Origin: an uncultured Devosia sp.
GTDB lineage: Bacteria; Pseudomonadota; Alphaproteobacteria; Rhizobiales; Devosiaceae
Length of the DNA: 26,819 nucleotides
Assembly (NCBI RefSeq): GCF_946479885.1
Contig: NZ_CAMLHM010000050.1
Coordinates: 1-26,819 of the forward strand
Direction of reading: 5' to 3'
Translations under genes and position numbers: made by a program
Part shown: positions 1 to 10,025 of the stretch, one piece after another
How positions within the stretch are numbered: the first letter of the stretch is position 1
How the letters are laid out: each line of letters starts with the position of its first letter
Notes under the pieces: model-generated
Seen by the model: only the letters and a program-made list of their open reading frames with translations
What the model was told of the DNA's origin: nothing
The model's database searches: none

Positions 1-1001
1 CCGCGTTCGGCCAGTTGCTGGGCCGTCAGGGCCAGCTTCATGGCGTTGAAGCACCGCTCCTGCGGCATGGCTGTCTCGGTGCGGTTGCGCACATCGTCGA
101 GGAACTGCCTGCCGAAGGGCCGCTCGACCTGTGAACAGTCTAGATAGCGCGGGCCTTCCTTATTGACCAGGAAGAGGTGATTTTCGCCGGGGCGGCCGGC
201 AATGTCGATATATTTGCGCAGCTCGATATAGCCTTCGGTGCCCAGAATGGTCAGGCGGCCGTCGCCCCAGGTCGGCAGGCCATCGGGCGTGAACCAGTCG
301 ACGCGGATATAGCCCGAGGTATTGGCTGTCCGCAGGTGCACGTCGCCCACATCCTGCAGGCCCGGTTTGCCGGGATTGTTGCGGTTGGCGACGGTGGCGG
401 AAACCACTTCGGCATCCATGGCACCGGAAAAGAACAGATACTGCTCGAACTGGTGGCTGCCGATATCGCAGAGGATGCCGCCATAGCGCTGGCGATCGAA
501 GAACCAGTCCGGCCGCTGGTTGTTGCGGATGGCATGGGGCCCCAGGCCCACCGTGTTGATCACCTTGCCGATGGCGCCCTGGGCGATGAGGTTGCCGGCT
601 TCGACAGTGGCGCGCACCTCGAAATGCTCGGAATAAAGCACCGAATAGATGCGACCGGTTTCCTTTTGCACCCGCTTGATCTCGTCGAGCTGGGCAAAGG
701 TGGTCATGCCGGGCTTGTCGGTCAGCACGTCCTTGCCATGCTGCATGACCGCGATCGAAATGGCGGCGCGGTCGGCCGGAATGGCCGAGGTCAGCACGAC
801 CGCAATCGCCGGGTCCTCGAGGATGGCGCGCGGATCGGCGACGCGCCTGGCCTGCGGATACTTGGCCCCGAAGGCGGTTGCGAGGTCGTCCTCGACAGCG
901 TGGAAGGCGGTGAATTGCGCGCCGGCATCGAGCAGGCAATCAACCTGGCCATAGATATGGGCGTGGTTGATACCGATGGCGGCGAATTTGATGTCAGTCA
1001 T
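1..1001 (-). CDS. Gfo/Idh/MocA family oxidoreductase (3' end outside window)
   Basis: NAD(P)-dependent sugar or polyol dehydrogenase-like protein, probably cytoplasmic. The frame runs open from an ATG at 1001 to the left edge (333 codons, no stop). The N-terminus (MTDIKFAAIGINHAHIYG) begins a Rossmann fold. The family Lys-Pro motif appears as TDKPG, with Lys at residue 96 (the usual form is EKP). The second family motif, D-x3-H, appears as CDIGSHQFEQ, with Asp179 and His183. It starts 4 bases after the stop of the upstream permease gene, so it is the fourth gene of the ABC transporter operon and probably acts on the imported compound. The substrate cannot be read from sequence. Long open frames on the opposite strand here are shadows. 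Confidence 0.88.
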   Translation of the reverse strand, partial: MTDIKFAAIGINHAHIYGQVDCLLDAGAQFTAFHAVEDDLATAFGAKYPQARRVADPRAILEDPAIAVVLTSAIPADRAAISIAVMQHGKDVLTDKPGMTTFAQLDEIKRVQKETGRIYSVLYSEHFEVRATVEAGNLIAQGAIGKVINTVGLGPHAIRNNQRPDWFFDRQRYGGILCDIGSHQFEQYLFFSGAMDAEVVSATVANRNNPGKPGLQDVGDVHLRTANTSGYIRVDWFTPDGLPTWGDGRLTILGTEGYIELRKYIDIAGRPGENHLFLVNKEGPRYLDCSQVERPFGRQFLDDVRNRTETAMPQERCFNAMKLALTAQQLAER

Positions 1002-1005
1002 AGAT

Positions 1006-1890
1006 TTAGCGTTTCATACCGGTGGTCGCGATGCCCTCGATGAGCAGCCGCTGGAAGAACAGGAAGAACAGGAAGATGGGCACGAGGCTGAGTACGCTCA
1101 TGGCGAAGAGCCCGCCATAATCGCTTTCGCCGGTGGAGTCGGTGAAGGTCCGCAGGCCCAGCATGACGGTGTAGGACTTCATTTCGCTGAGATAGATCAG
1201 CGGTCCGAAGAAATCGTCCCAGGTCCAGATGAAGGTGAAGATCGCCGCCGTCGCCAGCACGGGCATGGAGAGCGGCATGATGATCTTCCAGTAGATGCGC
1301 CAGGGCGAGCAGCCGTCCATCTGTGCCGCTTCGTCGAGCTCCTTGGGCAGGCCGCGGAAGAACTGCACCATCAGGAAAATGAAGAAGCCGTCGGCGGCCA
1401 GGAATTTGGGCACGACGAGGGGCAGGAAGGTGTTCACCCAGCCCAGGCTGCGGAACAGCACATATTGCGGGATCAGCGTCACCTGATAGGGCAGCATGAG
1501 CGTCATCAGCATCATGGCGAACCAGAAGTTCTTGAACTTGAAGTTCAGCCGGGCAAAGGCGAAGGCCGCCATGGAGCAGGCGATCACATTGCCGGCCACC
1601 GACAGGCCCGAGATGATGAAGCTGTTGAGGTAGAAGGTGGCAAAGCTGGTCCGCAGGCCATTCCAGCCACGGATATAGGCGTCGATGCTCCACGATGACG
1701 GCCAGATGCTGGCCGAGGTGAAGATCTCGTTTTCCGGGCGGAACGAGGCGGCGAGCAGCCATAGCAGCGGGTAGAGCATCAGCACCGAGGCGCCGAGCAG
1801 GCCGACATGGATCAACACCGAGGTCAGCCGGCTGCGGCCGGGCGATGCCGCGCCGGTAACGACCGTGAGCTTGGCGGTGACATTACTCAT
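1006..1890 (-). CDS. Carbohydrate ABC transporter permease (MalG/UgpE type)
   Basis: Inner-membrane permease of 294 residues, the usual size for the MalG-like subunit of a sugar importer. Several hydrophobic segments follow a short polar N-terminus; the first is around residues 25-47. The cytoplasmic EAA loop that docks on the ATPase is clear (EAAQMDGCSPWRIYWKIIMP, Glu187). The ATG at 1890 overlaps the end of the preceding permease gene by 8 bases, which suggests translational coupling, and the oxidoreductase gene starts 4 bases after this stop. No ATPase gene is visible in the window, so it may lie beyond the left edge or be a shared MsmK-like ATPase. The family call is firm; the substrate is unknown. 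Confidence 0.93.
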   Translation of the reverse strand: MSNVTAKLTVVTGAASPGRSRLTSVLIHVGLLGASVLMLYPLLWLLAASFRPENEIFTSASIWPSSWSIDAYIRGWNGLRTSFATFYLNSFIISGLSVAGNVIACSMAAFAFARLNFKFKNFWFAMMLMTLMLPYQVTLIPQYVLFRSLGWVNTFLPLVVPKFLAADGFFIFLMVQFFRGLPKELDEAAQMDGCSPWRIYWKIIMPLSMPVLATAAIFTFIWTWDDFFGPLIYLSEMKSYTVMLGLRTFTDSTGESDYGGLFAMSVLSLVPIFLFFLFFQRLLIEGIATTGMKR

Positions 1891-2830
1891 CGTAGTGCAC
1901 CCAGTATTTCGAGGTCAGGAAGGAGAAGGCGGTGAACAGGCCCACCAGTGCCAGCAGCACCCAGGCCAGGGCGGCGGCATAGCCCATGCGGAAGAAGCCG
2001 AACGCCTCCTGGTAGAGATAGAGCGTGTAGAACAGGGTCGAATTGATCGGGTTGCCGGTGCCACCGGAGATGATGAAGGCCGGGGTGAAGCTCTTGAAGG
2101 CCTCGATGGTCTGGATGATGGCGTTGAAGAACACCACCGGGGTCAGCAGCGGCAGGGTGATCTTGACGAATTGCCGCCATTTGCTGGCGCCGTCGAGACT
2201 GGCCGCCTCGTACATGTCGGATGGAATCTGCCTCAAGCCGGCCAGGAAGATGATCATGGGCGAGCCGAACTGCCAGATCGAGAGGATGATCAGCGTCCAC
2301 AGCGAGGTCTTGGGGTTGGAGATCCAGCTCGGCCCGGCAATGTCGAACACGGCAAGGAGCTTGTTGACCAGACCGTCGCCGGCAAAGATCTGCCGCCACA
2401 GGATGGCGATGGCCACCGACGCGCCAAGCAGGCTCGGCAGGTAGAACAGCGCACGATACATCGGCAGGCCCTTGATGCCGCGATTGAGCAGCATGGCCAC
2501 GGCAAGCGCAAAGGCTAGCTTGAGCGGCACCGAGAAGACCACGAAGAACATGGTCACCCGCATCGACGCCCAGAATTTGGGATCGTTGGTGAACATGCGG
2601 ATGTAGTTGTTGGCACCCACCCAGTCGGGGGAGGTCAGGAGGTCGAAATCGGTGAAGCTCAGATAGAGCGAGGTCACCATCGGGCCGATGGTCAGGCCGA
2701 GGAAGCCGATCAGCCAAGGCAGCAGGAACAGGTATCCCGGGGCATCGTTCTGCCAGATCCGGGACCAGAGGGATGGTGTGGCCGCGCGCTCCCTTGCGGA
2801 AGCGCCCGATTCAAGAGAGCGCGCGGTCAT
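1883..2830 (-). CDS. Sugar ABC transporter permease (MalF/UgpA type)
   Basis: Inner-membrane permease, partner of the MalG-like subunit encoded next. With the ATG at 2830 it has 315 residues. The first membrane segment (YLFLLPWLIGFLG) lies near residues 33-50. The EAA motif is YEAASLDGASKWRQFVKITL, with its Glu at residue 208. The frame extends upstream to a GTG at 2881 inside the binding-protein gene. I prefer the ATG at 2830 because it lies just after that gene's stop (2835), although its ribosome binding site is weak. It overlaps the next gene by 8 bases. Same operon and role as its neighbours. Confidence 0.92.
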   Translation of the reverse strand: MTARSLESGASARERAATPSLWSRIWQNDAPGYLFLLPWLIGFLGLTIGPMVTSLYLSFTDFDLLTSPDWVGANNYIRMFTNDPKFWASMRVTMFFVVFSVPLKLAFALAVAMLLNRGIKGLPMYRALFYLPSLLGASVAIAILWRQIFAGDGLVNKLLAVFDIAGPSWISNPKTSLWTLIILSIWQFGSPMIIFLAGLRQIPSDMYEAASLDGASKWRQFVKITLPLLTPVVFFNAIIQTIEAFKSFTPAFIISGGTGNPINSTLFYTLYLYQEAFGFFRMGYAAALAWVLLALVGLFTAFSFLTSKYWVHYDE

Positions 2831-2834
2831 TTTC

Positions 2835-4124
2835 TTAGGCTCGGCTGAGGATGTCGGCGGCGCCGGTGACGAGTTCGGCACCAGCCTGTTCGGGGGTCTT
2901 GGCGCCGAAGCCGACTTCCTGGCCCAGCGTACGGATCAGGGAAGCATCGACTTCACCGGCGGCAGCCGGCGGCGGCGGCGGCAGCTTGCCAAGCAGGTCG
3001 CCCAGGTTGGCCACGAAGTTCAGGGCGATCTGGCTCTGCTCGTCGAGGGTCGGGGCGACGATTTCGCGCGTGGCCTCGATGCACGGAATGCCGCGCTCGA
3101 CGCCCAGCAGCTTGGCCGCTTCCGGATCGGAGATGAAGAAGTTGAGGAAATCGGCAGCCGCTTCCTTGTTGGCTGAGGTGCCGCCAACCGAGAAGAACAT
3201 GGACGGCTTGCGGTAGTGGCCGCCGCCGACACCGGCGGCGATACGCGGATAGCCGATCATGCCCAGCTTGTCCTGGACGATGGCCTGGAAGCCAACGAGC
3301 TGGTTGGAGTTGGACGGCATCAGCGCCGCCTTGCCGAGCACCAGCATGGTGGTTTCGAGCGGACCGGTATCGAGCGCCTGGTCTTCAGCCGAAACGCAGA
3401 CACCGGCTTCGCGCAGCTTGGCCCAGAGCTGGTACCATTCGACGGCGTCGGCTTCGTCGAAGCCCAGCTTGCCATCGGCGGTGTAGAGCGCCTTGCCGCG
3501 CTGGCGCAGCCAGTTGTCGAGCGCCGGTTCCGAATAGGAGCCGTCGGCAATGGCCTTCATGCCACCACGGATATTGGCGCTGTTGAACGCCTCGCCGATG
3601 GTCATCAGGTCGTCATAGGTCCAGGCATTGGTCGGCAGTTCGATGCCGGCCTCTTCGAAGGCCACGGTATTGACCAGGGTCGCCACCGAATTGGCGCCGA
3701 GCGAAATGCCATAGAGCTTGCCGTCGACCTTGCCACCATCGAGCTGGTCGGCGTCGAAGCCGTCGAGCTTGAGGGCGCCGCCGACGAATTCGTCGAGCGG
3801 GGCGATGGCGTTACGCTTGGCGTATTCGACGATGTAGCGATAGTCCATCTGGATGATGTCGGGGGCGTTGCCGCCGGCCGTCTGGGTCGCCAGCTTGGGC
3901 CAGTAGTCGTTCCAGGCGAGGAATTCGCCCTCGACGGCCGTGCCCTTGGTCTTGGTGTAGAGGTCGGTCACGCCATAGGTGCGGTCGGCACGTGCCTGGC
4001 CGCCCCAGAAGATCAGGCGCAGGTTCGAGGCCTGGGCCCAGGCGGGCATAACGCCGGCGGCGCCAGCCGCGACGAGCGCGGAGCTGCCCATCAGAAATTG
4101 ACGGCGGTCGATACGAATAGTCAT
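2835..4124 (-). CDS. Extracellular solute-binding protein, family 1, Tat-exported
   Basis: Periplasmic sugar-binding protein (429 residues) that feeds the two permeases downstream. The N-terminus carries a twin-arginine signal (DRRQFLMG, Arg7-Arg8), a hydrophobic stretch and a likely cleavage site after AWA or AQA near residues 30-32, so folded export by Tat is expected. The mature part has family-1 character (NAPDIIQMDYRYIVEYAKRN, then a C-terminal half rich in aromatic residues). A run of five prolines lies near the C-terminus. A strong ribosome binding site (GGGAGG) sits 8 bases before the ATG. First gene of the leftward operon, preceded by two TetR-type operator candidates. The ligand is not predictable here. 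Confidence 0.92.
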   Translation of the reverse strand: MTIRIDRRQFLMGSSALVAAGAAGVMPAWAQASNLRLIFWGGQARADRTYGVTDLYTKTKGTAVEGEFLAWNDYWPKLATQTAGGNAPDIIQMDYRYIVEYAKRNAIAPLDEFVGGALKLDGFDADQLDGGKVDGKLYGISLGANSVATLVNTVAFEEAGIELPTNAWTYDDLMTIGEAFNSANIRGGMKAIADGSYSEPALDNWLRQRGKALYTADGKLGFDEADAVEWYQLWAKLREAGVCVSAEDQALDTGPLETTMLVLGKAALMPSNSNQLVGFQAIVQDKLGMIGYPRIAAGVGGGHYRKPSMFFSVGGTSANKEAAADFLNFFISDPEAAKLLGVERGIPCIEATREIVAPTLDEQSQIALNFVANLGDLLGKLPPPPPAAAGEVDASLIRTLGQEVGFGAKTPEQAGAELVTGAADILSRA

Positions 4125-4198
4125 CTGGTTTTCCTCCCTTGAAACTGCGGCCGTTCCGCTTCCGGAACGGGAGCGATCCGCGGCCTCCCGCCGCTAAA

Positions 4199-4213
4199 TC
4201 ACTAATCGGTTAC
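4199..4213. promoter_or_regulatory. Operator candidate, site 1 (TetR-type)
   Basis: TCACTAATCGGTTAC differs at two positions from TAACTAATCAGTTAC, the palindrome found before the gene at 6599. It lies 75 bases upstream of the binding-protein ATG, inside the ABC operon leader. Confidence 0.55.
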
Positions 4214-4296
4214 TTCAGTCCGGTGAAGCCGCTGTTTGCCACAAACGTTGCACCGTCGCGCTTATCGCTAAAATCTCCTTACGCAAAATGCACAAA

Positions 4297-4311
4297 TAAC
4301 CGACTGGTTAC
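4297..4311. promoter_or_regulatory. Operator candidate, site 2 (TetR-type)
   Basis: TAACC-GACT-GGTTA is a palindrome with the same TAAC-N6-GTTA geometry as the site at 6556-6571. Reading leftward, it begins immediately after the predicted -10 hexamer of the ABC operon, so bound protein would block RNA polymerase. Confidence 0.65.
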
Positions 4312-4341
4312 GACATAGCATACACTTTTGCGGCAAGGCAA
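4312..4341 (-). promoter_or_regulatory. Predicted promoter of the ABC operon
   Basis: On the minus strand, TTGCCT (4336-4341) and TATGTC (4312-4317) are separated by 18 bases. The hexamers are only moderate matches. Support comes from the operator directly downstream and from the same arrangement at the 6599 promoter. Confidence 0.4.
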
Positions 4342-4539
4342 TCACTTGTATGGAAGATGCAAGGTGACATTGAATTCCCCCTGCCTGACGCAGGCATGCC
4401 TGCTGATTTCTGCCTGCTTTCTGGTGTTTTGACAGCGGATGCCAGGTGGCGGACCGCGCTCTCCCATGGCCATTTCGTCGGCCAGTCTTGTCTTTTCGCC
4501 CTCACACTGGCGCAGTCTCGACCAAAAGAAAAATACGAA

Positions 4540-4555
4540 ATATCCTGTCCGATAT
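4540..4555. promoter_or_regulatory. Palindrome ATATC-N6-GATAT before the LysR gene
   Basis: ATATCCTGTCCGATAT is a perfect inverted repeat of 5-bp arms, 25 bases before the LysR start codon. LysR proteins often bind such T/A-rich dyads near their own promoter, so autoregulation is a reasonable inference, but a chance dyad cannot be excluded. Confidence 0.35.
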
Positions 4556-4580
4556 AGATTTCTTCTATGGACCTGCACGC

Positions 4581-5504
4581 ATGGACAAGCTGCTCAATCA
4601 GTTCCTGGCCGTGGCCGAGGCCGGCACGATCAGTGCCGCCGCGACGGCCCTGTTCGTGACCCAGCCGACGCTCACCTTCAACATGCGCAAGCTCGAGGAG
4701 ACCATGGGCGTGCCGCTGCTGATCCGCACGCCGCGCGGGGTGGAACTCACCGAATATGGCGAAACGCTGTACCAGAACGGCCGGCTGATGCGCCGGCTCT
4801 ATGACAACACGCTCAGCGCCATTGCCCATCAGCGCGGCCGCACCGAGCAGGGGCTGCGCATCGGTTCGGGCTATTCGTGGTGGACGCTGTTCATCCGCGA
4901 CATGGTGCTCGACTATTCACGGACCTACCCCAATGCGCGCATTCATGTGAGCCTGGGCAACCAGCTGCGCTGCATGGACCAGTTGCTGTCTGGCGACATT
5001 TCGCTGTTCGTGGCGCATGAGATCGAAGGATTGAGCCGCAGCACCGGCGCGCGCCTCATCCCGCTGACCCGGGTCGGGCAGAGCTATTTCGTGCGCGAGG
5101 GCCATGCCTTGCTCAGCCGGCCGCGCTCGATTGCCGAGATCGAAGCCTATCCGGCGGTGACCAGTTCCCTGCCCGAAGTTCGCCACCAGCGGTTCTTCGA
5201 GGCCTGGAGCCGGACCACGACAGGCAGCGCCCCGTTCGATCAGGGCAAATACGTGTTTGCCTCCAATTCCCTGGCCGCGTGCCTCGACTATGTCGAGCGC
5301 AGCGACGCGGTGATCAGCCATACCGAGGTGATGGCCGACGAGTTCATCCGCCGCGGCCTGCGCCGCATCGAGATCACCGAAATGACGCAGCGGAACCTGA
5401 TCGGCATCTATGTGCTGCAGGAGCGCGCCCAGGAGCCGCGCGTCGCCGAACTGATCGAGCGACTCATGGAAGCGGCCACGGCGGTGCTCCCGCCGCTGGG
5501 GTGA
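4581..5504 (+). CDS. LysR family transcriptional regulator
   Basis: DNA-binding regulator of 307 residues, the usual LysR length. The winged helix-turn-helix is at residues 1-60 (MDKLLNQFLAVAEAGTISAA, then TQPTLTFNMRKLEETMG), followed by a periplasmic-binding-like effector domain. The open frame extends upstream to 4446, but the family N-terminus starts at the ATG at 4581. There is no obvious ribosome binding site, and an out-of-frame ATG at 4567 overlaps. It is divergent from the ABC operon and lies between it and the TetR gene, so it probably senses the same or a related compound. The ligand is unknown. Confidence 0.92.
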   Translation: MDKLLNQFLAVAEAGTISAAATALFVTQPTLTFNMRKLEETMGVPLLIRTPRGVELTEYGETLYQNGRLMRRLYDNTLSAIAHQRGRTEQGLRIGSGYSWWTLFIRDMVLDYSRTYPNARIHVSLGNQLRCMDQLLSGDISLFVAHEIEGLSRSTGARLIPLTRVGQSYFVREGHALLSRPRSIAEIEAYPAVTSSLPEVRHQRFFEAWSRTTTGSAPFDQGKYVFASNSLAACLDYVERSDAVISHTEVMADEFIRRGLRRIEITEMTQRNLIGIYVLQERAQEPRVAELIERLMEAATAVLPPLG

Positions 5505-5505
5505 C

Positions 5506-5724
5506 TCCCCTCTCCCCTTGAGGGAGAGGGACGATCCGACGCGTCCAGCGGAGGATCAGGGTGAGGGGTCTTCGAGCCGTCCCATGGGGCAAATCGCTCC
5601 AGCGGAGCGATTTGAGGCGAGAAGGCCATAAGAGCTACGCTCGAATGGCGCGCCCCATGCCAGACGAGCAGAAAGAGACCCCTCATCCGCCCTTCGGGCA
5701 CCTTCTCCCTCAAGGGGAGAAGGG
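5506..5724. repeat. Paired inverted intergenic repeat (copy A)
   Basis: Fills the gap between LysR and TetR. The left arm (5506-5570) has CCCCTCTCCCCTTGAGGGAG and ends GTGAGGGGTC. The right arm (5677-5724) begins GACCCCTCAT and ends with the inverse CTCCCTCAAGGGGAGAAGGG. Between them lies a perfect 10-bp hairpin, AAATCGCTCC-AGC-GGAGCGATTT (5591-5613). The folded RNA would form a long imperfect stem, possibly ending both convergent transcripts. Confidence 0.75.
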
Positions 5725-5744
5725 AACGCACCGGAAACTGAACT

Positions 5745-6443
5745 CTAAGCCGGCTTGGTCCGGAGATAGTCGAGCACCATCTGCACGGCCTGGGCTTCGC
5801 GTTCCTGCACCATGTCGATGGCGCTGAGGTCGCGGGCGAAGATCACCGACAGGGTCGCCATATTGGACACGTAGAAGAAGCCCAAGGCGGCGATCGAAAT
5901 GTAGAGCTGCACCGGATCGACGTCGCGGCGGAAGATTCCGAGTTCGGCGCCCCGCTCCACGATGGTGGTGATCTGCCCCACCAGCGGGGAATGCAGGGCC
6001 TGGATATCGGGCAGCGTCTTGAGGAACCGGGCATTTTCGATGTTTTCCGTGCCCAGCAGGCGCGGAAACCATGGATTGGCGAGGAAGTGGCGGAAGGTGA
6101 AGCGCACCAGCCGGTCCATGGCATCGACCGGGCCGAATTGATCGAGACTCAACGCCCGCTCGCCGCGGCGGATCTCCTGGTACGCGTCCAGCAGCACGGC
6201 GCGGTAGAGGTCTTCCTTGTTGCCGAAATAGTGGTAGAGGAGCCGCTTGTTGGCCCCGGCCAGTGCGGCAATGGCGTCCACCCTGGCGCCCTCGAAGCCG
6301 CGCTCGGCGAACTCGGCCCGCCCGGCGACGAGGATCGCCGCCTTGGTCTTTTCAGAATTTCTGGCGCGCTTTACCGGCGCTGCCTTTGCCGCGAGCCGCT
6401 CGTCCATGTCCGCCCCCATGCGAACGGGCCAGTTACCGCGCAT
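5745..6443 (-). CDS. TetR/AcrR family transcriptional regulator
   Basis: Repressor-type regulator of 232 residues. The N-terminal helix-turn-helix is clear: KTKAAILVAGRAEFAERGFE, then VDAIAALAGANKRLLYHYFG and NKEDLYRAVL, roughly residues 30-80. The C-terminal ligand domain is all-helical. I chose the ATG at 6443 because GGAG sits 8 bases upstream; a GTG at 6452 and ATGs at 6419 and 6407 are alternatives. It is divergent from the oxidoreductase operon at 6599, and the palindrome at 6556-6571 in the shared gap is its likely operator. The same motif before the ABC operon suggests it controls both units. The ligand is probably a pathway intermediate (inference). Confidence 0.9.
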   Translation of the reverse strand: MRGNWPVRMGADMDERLAAKAAPVKRARNSEKTKAAILVAGRAEFAERGFEGARVDAIAALAGANKRLLYHYFGNKEDLYRAVLLDAYQEIRRGERALSLDQFGPVDAMDRLVRFTFRHFLANPWFPRLLGTENIENARFLKTLPDIQALHSPLVGQITTIVERGAELGIFRRDVDPVQLYISIAALGFFYVSNMATLSVIFARDLSAIDMVQEREAQAVQMVLDYLRTKPA

Positions 6444-6524
6444 GTCATCCACTCCAGATAACAGCGCGCGCCAGCGCGGTAAAGGCGAAGCCCGACTGTT
6501 GCCACATGATTGGCGACGAGCGGC

Positions 6525-6554
6525 TTGACGGCGCCCTGCTGTCCCGTGTAGCTA
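6525..6554 (+). promoter_or_regulatory. Predicted promoter of the oxidoreductase-DUF993 operon
   Basis: TTGACG (6525-6530) and TAGCTA (6549-6554) are separated by 18 bases. The palindromic operator begins two bases after the -10, covering the expected transcription start. Confidence 0.55.
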
Positions 6555-6555
6555 A

Positions 6556-6571
6556 GTAACTAATCAGTTAC
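6556..6571. promoter_or_regulatory. TetR-type operator (best copy)
   Basis: GTAACTAATCAGTTAC is an inverted repeat with perfect 6-bp arms (GTAACT and AGTTAC) around AATC. It sits between the divergent TetR and oxidoreductase genes, directly after the predicted -10 of the latter, 28 bases before its ATG. Related copies occur at 4199-4213 and 4297-4311. Confidence 0.7.
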
Positions 6572-6598
6572 ACGCCGAAGCGGCACGGAGGATTTCGA

Positions 6599-7750
6599 AT
6601 GGCAGACAGGCGGCTTGGACTCATCATGCACGGGGTCACCGGGCGTATGGGCTATAACCAGCATCTGGTGCGCTCGATCCTGGCGATCCGCGACCAGGGC
6701 GGCATTGCGCTGAGCAATGGCGACCGGCTGGTCGTCGATCCCATCATCGTTGGCCGCGATGCCGACAAGATCGAGCGGCTGGCCAAGAAGCACAACATTG
6801 CCCGCTGGGGCAGCGATCTCGACGCCGCGCTCGCCAATCCTGACGACACGGTGTTTTTCGATGCCGGCACCACGCTGATGCGCGCGTCGCTGATCGAGAA
6901 GGCACTGGCATCAGGCAAGCATGTCTATTGCGAAAAGCCCACCAGCGATTCCCTCGATATCGCGGTCAACCTGGCCAAGACCGCCCGTGCCTCGGGCCTC
7001 AAGCATGGCGTGGTGCAGGACAAGCTGTTCCTGCCCGGTCTGCTCAAGCTCAAGATGCTGCGCGACAGCGGCTTTTTCGGCGACATTCTCTCGGTGCGCG
7101 GCGAGTTCGGCTATTGGGTGTTCGAGGGTGACTGGCAGCCGGCGCAGCGCCCGAGCTGGAACTATCGCAAGGCCGATGGCGGCGGCATCATCCTGGATAT
7201 GCTGTGCCACTGGCGCTATGTGCTCGACAACCTGTTCGGCGAGGTCAAGGCCGTGTCCTGCCTGGGCGCGACGCACATTCCCGAGCGCGTCGACGAGAAG
7301 GGCAATCGCTACAAGGCCGATACGGATGACGCGGCCTATGCGACCTTCGAGCTCGAAGGCGGCGTGATCGCCCAGATCAACTCGAGCTGGACCACCCGCG
7401 TCCGCCGCGACGATCTCGTGACCTTCCATGTCGATGGCACCAAGGGTTCGGCGGTGGCGGGCCTCCACAAATGCTGGAGCCAGCATCGCGTCAACACCCC
7501 CAAGCCGGTGTGGAATCCAGACCAGCCGCAGACCATGAACTTCTTCAACGACTGGGAAGAGGTGCCTGACAACTGGCCGGCGCAGAACGGCTTCAAGGCG
7601 CAGTGGGAAATGTTCCTCAAGCATGTCGCCGAAGACGCGCCGTGGGAATATGGCCTCGAGGCCGGTGCCAAGGGCGTGCAGCTGGCGGAACTCGGCCTCA
7701 AAAGCTGGGCCGAACGCCGCTGGCTGGATGTACCCAAGCTGGAATTCTGA
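6599..7750 (+). CDS. Gfo/Idh/MocA family oxidoreductase
   Basis: Predicted NAD(P)-dependent sugar dehydrogenase or keto-sugar reductase of 383 residues. The Rossmann part starts at once (MADRRLGLIMHGVTGRMGYN). The conserved Lys-Pro motif is CEKPTS with Lys113. The D-x3-H motif is DMLCHWRYVLDNLFG with Asp200 and His204. The C-terminal part has family-typical beta-sheet sequence. GGAGG lies 8 bases before the ATG. It is first in a three-gene operon with a DUF993 protein and a TIM-barrel isomerase. It is clearly different in sequence from the other oxidoreductase at 1-1001, so the locus carries two distinct dehydrogenase steps. The exact substrate is unknown. Confidence 0.92.
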   Translation: MADRRLGLIMHGVTGRMGYNQHLVRSILAIRDQGGIALSNGDRLVVDPIIVGRDADKIERLAKKHNIARWGSDLDAALANPDDTVFFDAGTTLMRASLIEKALASGKHVYCEKPTSDSLDIAVNLAKTARASGLKHGVVQDKLFLPGLLKLKMLRDSGFFGDILSVRGEFGYWVFEGDWQPAQRPSWNYRKADGGGIILDMLCHWRYVLDNLFGEVKAVSCLGATHIPERVDEKGNRYKADTDDAAYATFELEGGVIAQINSSWTTRVRRDDLVTFHVDGTKGSAVAGLHKCWSQHRVNTPKPVWNPDQPQTMNFFNDWEEVPDNWPAQNGFKAQWEMFLKHVAEDAPWEYGLEAGAKGVQLAELGLKSWAERRWLDVPKLEF

Positions 7751-7889: not shown

Positions 7890-7895
7890 TGCACA

Positions 7896-9065
7896 ATGAC
7901 CCATATCAATCTTCCAAACACCGATCGCAGCATCACCCCCTACACGCTGACCGGCGTCCCCATCCCCTTCGTCCGCCACAAGGCGACGGACTTTTCCCGC
8001 ATCGCCTATGCGGCGGCGCATGTGGTGGCCGATCCGCTAGCCAATAACGATCCCTGGCTCACGCCGGCCATCGATTGGGACACGACGCTCAAATTCCGCC
8101 ATCGCCTGTGGGATCTGGGGCTGGGCGTCGCCGAGGCGATGGACACCGCCCAGCGCGGCATGGGCCTGAGCTGGACGGACGCGCAGGAGCTGATCCGCCG
8201 CGCCCAGGCCGAAGCCCGGACGCGGGACGATGCGCTCATCGCCTACGGCGCGGGAACGGACCATCTGGCGCCGGGGCCGGATGTCACCATCGACCAGATC
8301 ATCGCTGCCTATGAGGAGCAGGTGGGATTCGTCGAAGGCCAGGGCGGCCGCGTCATCCTGATGGCCTCGCGCGCCCTCGCTGCCGCCGCCAAGTCCCCCG
8401 ACGACTATGCGCGGGTCTATGGCCGCATTCTCAGCCAGGTGAAGCAGCCGGTGATCATGCATTGGCTGGGCGAAATGTTTGACCCGGCCCTGCAGGGCTA
8501 TTGGGGCAATATCGACCACGACAAGGCGATGGATGTCTGTCTCGATGTCATCGCCGCCAATGCGGACAAGGTGGACGGCATCAAGATTTCGCTGCTGTCG
8601 GCCGAGAAAGAAATCGCCATGCGCCGGCGGCTGCCCGATCAGGTCAAGATGTATACCGGCGACGACTTCAACTATGCCGAACTGATCGCTGGCGATGACC
8701 AGGGTTATTCGCACGCGCTGCTCGGCATTTTCGACGCGATAGCCCCGGCCGCCTCGGCGGGCCTCGCCGCGCTCGGCAAGGGCAATAATAACGAATTCTT
8801 CGACCTGCTCGAGCCCACCGTGCCGCTCAGCCGGCATATCTTCGCGGCCCCGACGCGCTTCTACAAGACCGGCGTGGTGTTCCTCGCCTATCTCAATGGC
8901 CTCCAGGACCACTTCGCCATGATCGGCGGCCAGCAATCGACCCGTTCGGTGCAGCATTTGAGCGAACTCTTCCGTCTCGCCGACAAGGCACGGGTACTGG
9001 CCGATCCAGAGCTTGCCGTGAAGCGCATGCAGGCGGTGCTGGCTGTGAATGGGGTGGGAGCATGA
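7896..9065 (+). CDS. DUF993 protein, dihydrodipicolinate synthase/aldolase-like
   Basis: A 389-residue protein that I recognise as the DUF993 family, often annotated as dihydrodipicolinate synthase-like (TIM barrel, Schiff-base aldolase fold). Family stretches include RIAYAAAHVVADPLANNDPW, AMDTAQRGMGLSW, VIMHWLGEMFDPALQGYWG and MYTGDDFNYAELIAGDDQGY. The lysine in VDGIKISLL (Lys230) is a candidate Schiff-base residue by analogy with the fold (inference). The open frame extends upstream to 7623, but that part is a shadow and repeat DNA. The family start is the ATG at 7896, with GGGGGAG 6 bases before it, supplied by the intergenic repeat. It lies between a dehydrogenase and an isomerase, which suggests a carbon-carbon cleavage or lyase step in sugar breakdown. 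No reaction is established to my knowledge. Confidence 0.88.
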   Translation: MTHINLPNTDRSITPYTLTGVPIPFVRHKATDFSRIAYAAAHVVADPLANNDPWLTPAIDWDTTLKFRHRLWDLGLGVAEAMDTAQRGMGLSWTDAQELIRRAQAEARTRDDALIAYGAGTDHLAPGPDVTIDQIIAAYEEQVGFVEGQGGRVILMASRALAAAAKSPDDYARVYGRILSQVKQPVIMHWLGEMFDPALQGYWGNIDHDKAMDVCLDVIAANADKVDGIKISLLSAEKEIAMRRRLPDQVKMYTGDDFNYAELIAGDDQGYSHALLGIFDAIAPAASAGLAALGKGNNNEFFDLLEPTVPLSRHIFAAPTRFYKTGVVFLAYLNGLQDHFAMIGGQQSTRSVQHLSELFRLADKARVLADPELAVKRMQAVLAVNGVGA

Positions 9066-9184: not shown

Positions 9185-9206
9185 GCCCAACATCGAGGCC
9201 ATGCTC

Positions 9207-10025
9207 ATGACTGAAATCTCCCTCAACCTCGCCACGACGCGGCAGGTCTGGGGCTTTGCCGAAGCCGTCGATGGATGCCTGCGGGCCGGCATCACGGCCA
9301 TATCCCCCTGGCGCGACCAGATCGCGGCCGTCGGCCTCGCCGAAGCGGCCAATATCGTAAAAACAAACAAGCTGCAGGTTACCGGCGTTTGCCGCGGCGG
9401 CATGTTCCCCGCCGAAACGGCGGCTGGGCGACAGGCCAATATCGACGACAATCTGCGGGCGATCGATGAAGCGGCCGCGCTCAATGCCGATTGCCTAGTG
9501 CTTGTTGTCGGCGGCCTGCCCGGCTCAAGCAAGGACATTGTCGGCGCGCGCCAGATGGTGACCGACGGCATTGCCGCCATGCTGCCCCATGCCAGGGCGA
9601 GCGGCGTCAAGATCGCCATCGAGCCGCTGCATCCGATGTATGCCGCCGACCGCGCCTGCGTGAACACGATCGATCAGGCGCTCGATATCTGCGAGACGCT
9701 GGGCGAGACGGTCGGCGTCGCCATCGACGTCTATCACGTCTGGTGGGATCCCTACCTTGCCCGCGCCATTGCCCGGGCCGGCCGCATGAAGCGGATTTTC
9801 GCGCATCACATCTGCGACTGGCTGGTGCCGACCAAGGACATGCTGCTCGATCGCGGCATGATGGGCGACGGCGTCATCGACCTGCCCGGCATCCGCAAGA
9901 TGATCGAGGATGCCGGCTTCCACGGTCCGCAGGAGGTGGAAATCTTCAGCCAGGACAATTGGTGGAAGCGCCCCGGCGACGACGTGCTCGCTGTCATCAA
10001 GGAGCGGGTCGCCACGGTCTGCTGA
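9207..10025 (+). CDS. Sugar phosphate isomerase/epimerase (AP endonuclease 2-like TIM barrel)
   Basis: TIM-barrel protein of 272 residues, of the xylose isomerase-like / AP endonuclease family 2 group, which includes keto-sugar isomerases and epimerases. Typical metal-site stretches are present: GVKIAIEPLHPMY (Glu ligand), VGVAIDVYHVWWDP (Asp and His), IFAHHICDW (His) and VEIFSQDNWW (final Glu). These match the usual E-D-H-E divalent metal arrangement. I chose the ATG at 9207 because GAGG lies 8 bases before it; an in-frame ATG at 9201 is the alternative. Last gene of the 6599 operon, followed by a strong terminator. It likely interconverts an intermediate made by the dehydrogenase; the substrate is unknown. 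Confidence 0.88.
   Translation: MTEISLNLATTRQVWGFAEAVDGCLRAGITAISPWRDQIAAVGLAEAANIVKTNKLQVTGVCRGGMFPAETAAGRQANIDDNLRAIDEAAALNADCLVLVVGGLPGSSKDIVGARQMVTDGIAAMLPHARASGVKIAIEPLHPMYAADRACVNTIDQALDICETLGETVGVAIDVYHVWWDPYLARAIARAGRMKRIFAHHICDWLVPTKDMLLDRGMMGDGVIDLPGIRKMIEDAGFHGPQEVEIFSQDNWWKRPGDDVLAVIKERVATVC

Follow-up and report, generated by a model that had tools for sequence, protein, structure and literature searches.

The stretch analysed here, referred to as the window, comprises 26,819 nucleotides of an uncultured Devosia sp. (contig NZ_CAMLHM010000050.1 of assembly GCF_946479885.1). Its first part encodes an importer, two regulators and the enzymes of a putative breakdown pathway:

3..1001, minus strand: second Gfo/Idh/MocA-type oxidoreductase, truncated at the edge of the window
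1006..1890, minus strand: importer permease
1883..2881, minus strand: importer permease
2835..4124, minus strand: importer binding protein (SBP_bac_8)
4581..5504, plus strand: LysR-family regulator, divergent from the importer
5745..6407, minus strand: TetR-family regulator (PF00440, PF17938), with its start moved from 6452 to 6407
6599..7750, plus strand: Gfo/Idh/MocA-type oxidoreductase
7890..9065, plus strand: DUF993 protein, predicted dihydrodipicolinate-synthase-like fold
9201..10025, plus strand: xylose-isomerase-like TIM-barrel protein (AP_endonuc_2)

The importer binding protein is most similar in sequence to YesO (5z6b, 2.7e-58) and also matches a TogB-type protein (2uvg, 2e-22), both of which we take to be binders of pectin-derived oligosaccharides. 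The Gfo/Idh/MocA-type oxidoreductase of the breakdown operon is closest to 3oqb. No paper on DUF993 was found in the collection of literature searched. Its structural model (pLDDT 84.6) matches 4dnh, the itself uncharacterised SMc04132 of Sinorhizobium meliloti, at a TM score of 0.91, and among the 50 matches listed, TM scores by target against dihydrodipicolinate synthases are mostly 0.72-0.81. DUF993 is accordingly modelled with the fold of the dihydrodipicolinate synthase / N-acetylneuraminate lyase superfamily, at ~13-16% identity to these enzymes, and three of its lysines (K227, K232 and K326) are invariant in 17 sequences. SMc04133, next in number to SMc04132, is tabulated as an oxidoreductase in PMC12542648, and going by that table the S. 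meliloti pair combines a DUF993 protein with an oxidoreductase, as in the window. A plausible scheme is that a uronate-containing glycoside or sugar acid would be taken up, oxidised, isomerised and aldol-cleaved.

The TetR protein carries a clear TetR_N helix-turn-helix (PF00440, 57.2 bits against a cut-off of 24) and a C-terminal ligand domain (PF17938, 138.6 bits against 26.2). No named NCBIfam family reaches its cut-off; the closest, RutR, scores 55.3 bits where 368 is required for membership. The recognition-helix region, read by eye, is NKRLLYHY or NKRMLYHY and nearly invariant in aligned homologues. The protein resembles TetR-family local repressors in its helix-turn-helix and ligand-domain profiles, in the position of its gene beside the presumed targets and in the palindromic site at the promoter; inducer and targets differ from those of known members. 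Literature searches returned nothing relevant on TetR and Devosia among the matches listed, and the operator sequence was not found in them.

The regulatory features around these genes are as follows, with O1 to O4 denoting predicted operators:

6556..6571, no strand assigned: O1, GTAACTAATCAGTTAC, directly 3' of the -10 of the oxidoreductase-DUF993-isomerase operon
4296..4311, no strand assigned: O2, outer importer operator, GTAACCAGTCGGTTAT on the minus strand
4198..4213, no strand assigned: O3, inner importer operator, GTAACCGATTAGTGAT on the minus strand, one arm mismatch
6421..6436, no strand assigned: O4, tetR-leader site, GTAACTGGCCCGTTCG on the minus strand, probably autoregulatory
6525..6554, plus strand: promoter of the oxidoreductase-DUF993-isomerase operon (TTGACG, 18 bases, TAGCTA), read by eye
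4312..4341, minus strand: outer importer promoter (TTGCCT, 18 bases, TATGTC), read by eye and aligned in relatives
4345..4356, minus strand: 12-mer box, CTTCCATACAAG, candidate site of a wider regulon, in the outer importer promoter
4180..4194, minus strand: leader hairpin GCGGC-GGGAG-GCCGC, directly after O3

The three TAAC-N6-GTTA palindromes named in a preliminary description of this DNA are all present, as 16-mers at 4198-4213, 4296-4311 and 6556-6571; the mismatch in O3 replaces TAAC with TCAC. A fourth match at 6422-6435, absent from that description, is conserved in the window's own group. Allowing one mismatch, the window holds these four matches against a shuffle mean of 0.95, and four are reached in 3/100 shuffles. 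Taken alone, the window is weak evidence for the palindromes, and it is the relatives that settle the question.

Loci were fetched with the TetR protein for the best 80 of 126 relatives, mostly Devosia, with Pelagibacterium, Kaistia, Halomonas, Belnapia and more among the others. Within the 110 bases before the oxidoreductase gene, an exact TAAC-N6-GTTA occurs in 71/77 regions, and of the alternative spacers tried, N2 to N12, N2 alone is found (two regions). Aligned sites average 1.4-1.7 bits per base across the operator columns. The six regions without an exact site are L053, L055, L071, L075, L078 and L080; L080 carries a site at -201, in L078 it lies farther upstream, and L071 has it upstream of tetR. 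The remaining three are Halomonas-type loci whose TetR proteins are 66-71% identical and which show no visible site. At the importer, one or more sites with at most one of eight positions mismatched are present in all 44 regions (the window and 43 loci). Many genomes carry tctC, a small gene (probably TctB) and TctA upstream of tetR and co-directional with it, along with a divergent TauE-family gene, the TctC, TctA and TauE families having been scanned in L020; here a site with at most one of eight mismatches precedes tctC in 26/32 loci, mostly ~50 bases before the start. The shared operator proposed in the preliminary description is thus conserved upstream of the orthologous oxidoreductase and importer operons, including importers away from tetR, and the proposal survives this comparison. 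A Kaistia genome (L115 / L210) was also seen to carry a second TetR-DUF993 pair (TetR 47%, DUF993 67% identical) with its own exact operator between the genes.

The oxidoreductase and importer sites sit in a promoter context that recurs among relatives. Read by eye, the O1 promoter consists of TTGACG (6525-6530), 18 bases, TAGCTA (6549-6554) and one further base before 6556, while the outer importer promoter on the minus strand runs from TTGCCT (4341-4336) through 18 bases to TATGTC (4317-4312) and directly, with 0 bases between, into 4311. The arithmetic put forward earlier, of two sites 0-1 base after a -10 with 18-base spacers, holds on this reading. A consensus promoter scan requiring 9 of 12 matches found no promoter in 4100-6650, so the promoter calls rest on conservation. 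When oxidoreductase regions are anchored on the operator, TTGAC is kept in 71/71 aligned sites, and the operator directly follows the -10. The importer alignments resolve two promoters: an outer one composed of CTTCCATACAAG, a TTGC-type -35, a -10 and O2, and an inner one composed of TTGAC, a -10 and O3. The inner -35 lacks TTGAC in 13/44 rows, the window included, where it has decayed; the operator stays. L044 and L045 combine LysR and the 12-mer with one promoter only. Mis-picked rows were left out of the profiles (L037, L046, L048 and L069 for outer sites; L037, L068 and L069 for inner sites).

The fourth site bears on the tetR gene itself. GTAAC-N6-GTTCG lies 72-74 bases before the tetR residue-31 codon in 10/39 divergent loci, the window included, with one mismatch in two of the ten. 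In six loci (L001, L004-L007 and L009), an in-frame stop falls within this site or between the site and the conserved coding region, and because of it the site is leader there rather than coding sequence. Since the in-frame stops place the O4-type site in the leader, the longest tetR reading frame probably starts too early, with the true start at 6407. In the window's group, tetR is likely to be autoregulated through O4.

The distance of 98 between the two importer sites, given in the preliminary description, is correct. The looping that it was suggested to allow is not supported. Looping would mean that TetR works by holding O2 and O3 together rather than at each promoter alone, and both the spacing in the window and the 85-99 often seen in relatives could accommodate it; over all 38 loci the phasing reaches nominal significance (R 0.60 at 10.5 bp). 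These loci are related, however, and on the 14 distinct spacings, which range from 56 to 103, p is ~0.10. Furthermore, each operator follows a promoter of its own, and many loci have one operator only. We therefore regard looping as unlikely, and the spacing and promoter data favour two importer promoters, each predicted to be repressed separately at its own operator.

A further question is which protein binds the palindromes, given that a LysR gene stands divergent from the importer. The LysR-family protein could be the binder that controls the importer, with TetR acting elsewhere, and the outer operator does accompany LysR in 37/38 two-operator rows. Against this, the palindrome also precedes the oxidoreductase and importer genes at loci that lack a LysR match (L042, L046, L048, L049, L056 and others), and L003, on a short contig, has two operators and no LysR match. 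The presence of the site at loci without an adjacent LysR gene (for example L042, L046, L049 and L056) therefore points to TetR over LysR, and we consider control through LysR very improbable. The conservation in relatives instead supports the earlier suggestion of a TetR regulon that links uptake and breakdown despite the LysR gene between them.

We put the probability at about 0.87 that one TetR protein controls both uptake and breakdown through a common palindrome, to which it is predicted to bind. In this mechanism, which we infer from sequence as regards TetR as binder, its repression and its inducer, the TetR-family protein would act as a local repressor that binds the 16-bp palindrome GTAAC-N6-GTTAY. 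As the palindrome lies just downstream of the -10 of the controlled promoters, bound TetR would block initiation. Its predicted targets in the window are the oxidoreductase-DUF993-isomerase operon (through O1) and the importer, via two promoters (through O2 and O3), and tetR itself is probably also under its control via O4. TetR would be released by an inducer, for which the imported compound or an intermediate of the pathway is the most likely candidate. In relatives, TetR may also control a tripartite tricarboxylate transporter. Some TetR-family members are activators, and activation of these promoters would be a conceivable variant; in the aligned promoters, however, the sites lie downstream of the -10 and over the start region, making activation the most improbable of the alternatives weighed here. 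Repression by TetR would be an ordinary kind of bacterial control, and this circuit appears well supported as such.

The palindrome also accompanies operons located away from tetR. Twenty-five genomes without an importer binding protein at the fetched TetR locus were taken, and 21 of them have a match at 1e-60; the best matches of 20 are assessable, L134 being left out as it starts near a contig edge. Two sites and the 12-mer precede 18 of these 20 importers. L140 has one site, and L141, with a match that is 41% identical and under the identity limit, has no site reported. Importer paralogues at 56-63% identity (L142, L143 and L144) are without a site, and L145 (57%) has one. What was observed directly is the sites themselves, where they lie, how well they are conserved, and that they also occur at importer and tctC operons away from tetR.

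A scan of 20 genomes with GTAACYNNNYNGTTAY yields 61 distinct places, of which 44 (counted from the listing) are assigned to the regulon. Among the 17 places outside it, gene context was read for six, and strict sites before tctC genes away from tetR occur at two places in two genomes. Genome-wide, the strict pattern shows no total excess in these 20 genomes, with 82 strand-hits against 83 for a reversed control. Because the total is no higher than in the control, placement, rather than number, is the evidence.

Across the order, DUF993 is found in 73/249 genomes, and 20 of these distant loci were read. Within ~10 kb, all six loci in which TetR lies next to the operon start have the exact site (L217, L220, L221, L222, L226 and L228), as does L219. 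A similar recognition helix (NKRMIYHY) occurs in L225 and L229, where the oxidoreductase has no site. At 1e-25, every one of the 20 genomes encodes a TetR homologue. By eye, 9/20 have a strict site by TetR or DUF993, and 7/20 (L256-L262) have a variant, TTATCCAACG(G/A)GTTAA, between tetR and the oxidoreductase; in these seven, the TetR homologue lies ~5 kb upstream of the oxidoreductase. At L257, the one variant locus read for this, the variant precedes the gene of an ABC permease, after which an NMT1-type binding protein is encoded. The other four genomes (G172, G207, G223 and G242) show no site near the locus. The predicted operator is widely conserved, not universal. Distant DUF993 loci had also been considered as a TetR-free control, which looked clean within ~10 kb and was dropped, TetR homologues being present in all 20 genomes.

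The outer importer promoter appears to receive a second input. The 12-mer occurs in 88 copies in 20 relatives' genomes, against one for the reversed pattern, and is present in 18/20 of them. It is exact in 38/40 rows with LysR and also in 8/32 rows without. It stands 46-49 bases from the first operator in 37 LysR-containing rows with two operators and 59 bases away in five rows without LysR; single loci give 48 (L045), 47 (L003), 49 (L131) and 149 (L139). That the 12-mer is the box of the local LysR was considered and dropped, as it occurs genome-wide and is also present in three genomes, G006, G041 and G042, that lack a LysR match at 1e-40.

Another twenty copies were inspected, and eight proteins encoded near them were compared with NCBIfam models. 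Three exceed their cut-offs: glucuronate isomerase, phosphogluconate dehydrogenase and class I fructose-bisphosphate aldolase. Two proteins resembling fructuronate reductase, one resembling KDG kinase and a TctD-like response regulator fall below theirs; a GH2 protein among the neighbours ends before its copy. In the copies read, the 12-mer often lies a few bases before a TTGAC-like hexamer, a placement that would fit an activator site. The outer importer promoter may accordingly be tied to a wider hexuronate and central-sugar regulon, and the importer is perhaps wired to hexuronate use through the 12-mer. Searches of the literature with the 12-mer and related strings gave nothing on bacterial control of these genes among the matches listed, and a plasmid search with 4100-4640 gave no match. 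At L231, a copy lies between a glucuronate isomerase gene and a divergent gene for a TctD-like response regulator, which is followed, by eye, by a kinase-like gene.

Directly after O3, the importer leader keeps a covarying stem of 5-6 bp, in which 87.9% of cells pair across all 60 leaders. Changes on both sides occur in 5/6 pairs, and 41 cells are changed on both sides, against 11.6 in shuffles and 1-4 in slid controls; further pair types are no more numerous than expected (74 of 500 shuffles). Pairing is lost at the outermost position in 21/60 leaders, and L069, L131 and L145 are unlike the rest. An earlier count on 40 chosen leaders of the 60 gave the same picture. No such signal appears on the oxidoreductase transcript (mean z -0.13, 65 leaders). 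In a transcript started at the inner promoter, the hairpin would lie near the mRNA start and may protect the mRNA there, and in a transcript from the outer promoter it would be internal.

Taken together, these features may describe a portable regulon serving an as yet undescribed pathway that breaks down a sugar or sugar acid, with one TetR protein, a core and at least three transporter types, a two-signal importer promoter and a hairpin leader, a reading that we hold tentatively and at slightly less than even odds. If it is true, the core consists of the Gfo oxidoreductase, the aldolase-fold DUF993 enzyme and the isomerase; the transporters differ by lineage, comprising a sugar ABC importer, the tripartite tricarboxylate transporter and an NMT1-type ABC importer; a single operator is retained even between far-apart operons; and the importer promoter responds to two signals, with TetR conveying the pathway inducer and the 12-mer conveying hexuronate status. 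The common operator links the uncharacterised enzyme family DUF993 to defined transporters, including ones encoded at other genomic locations, and taken with the 12-mer it limits the candidate substrates to carbohydrates or sugar acids, perhaps uronate-linked ones. The pathway thereby becomes testable, and the regulon is predicted for dozens of Devosia-like genomes. Relative to the preliminary description, the site in the tetR leader, the branch with the tricarboxylate transporter and the 12-mer box are new.

One minor feature of the locus lies between lysR and tetR, where ~5506-5730 contains inverted GGGAGAGGG/CCTTCTCCC-type repeats; by eye, a similar-looking stretch precedes tetR in L256.
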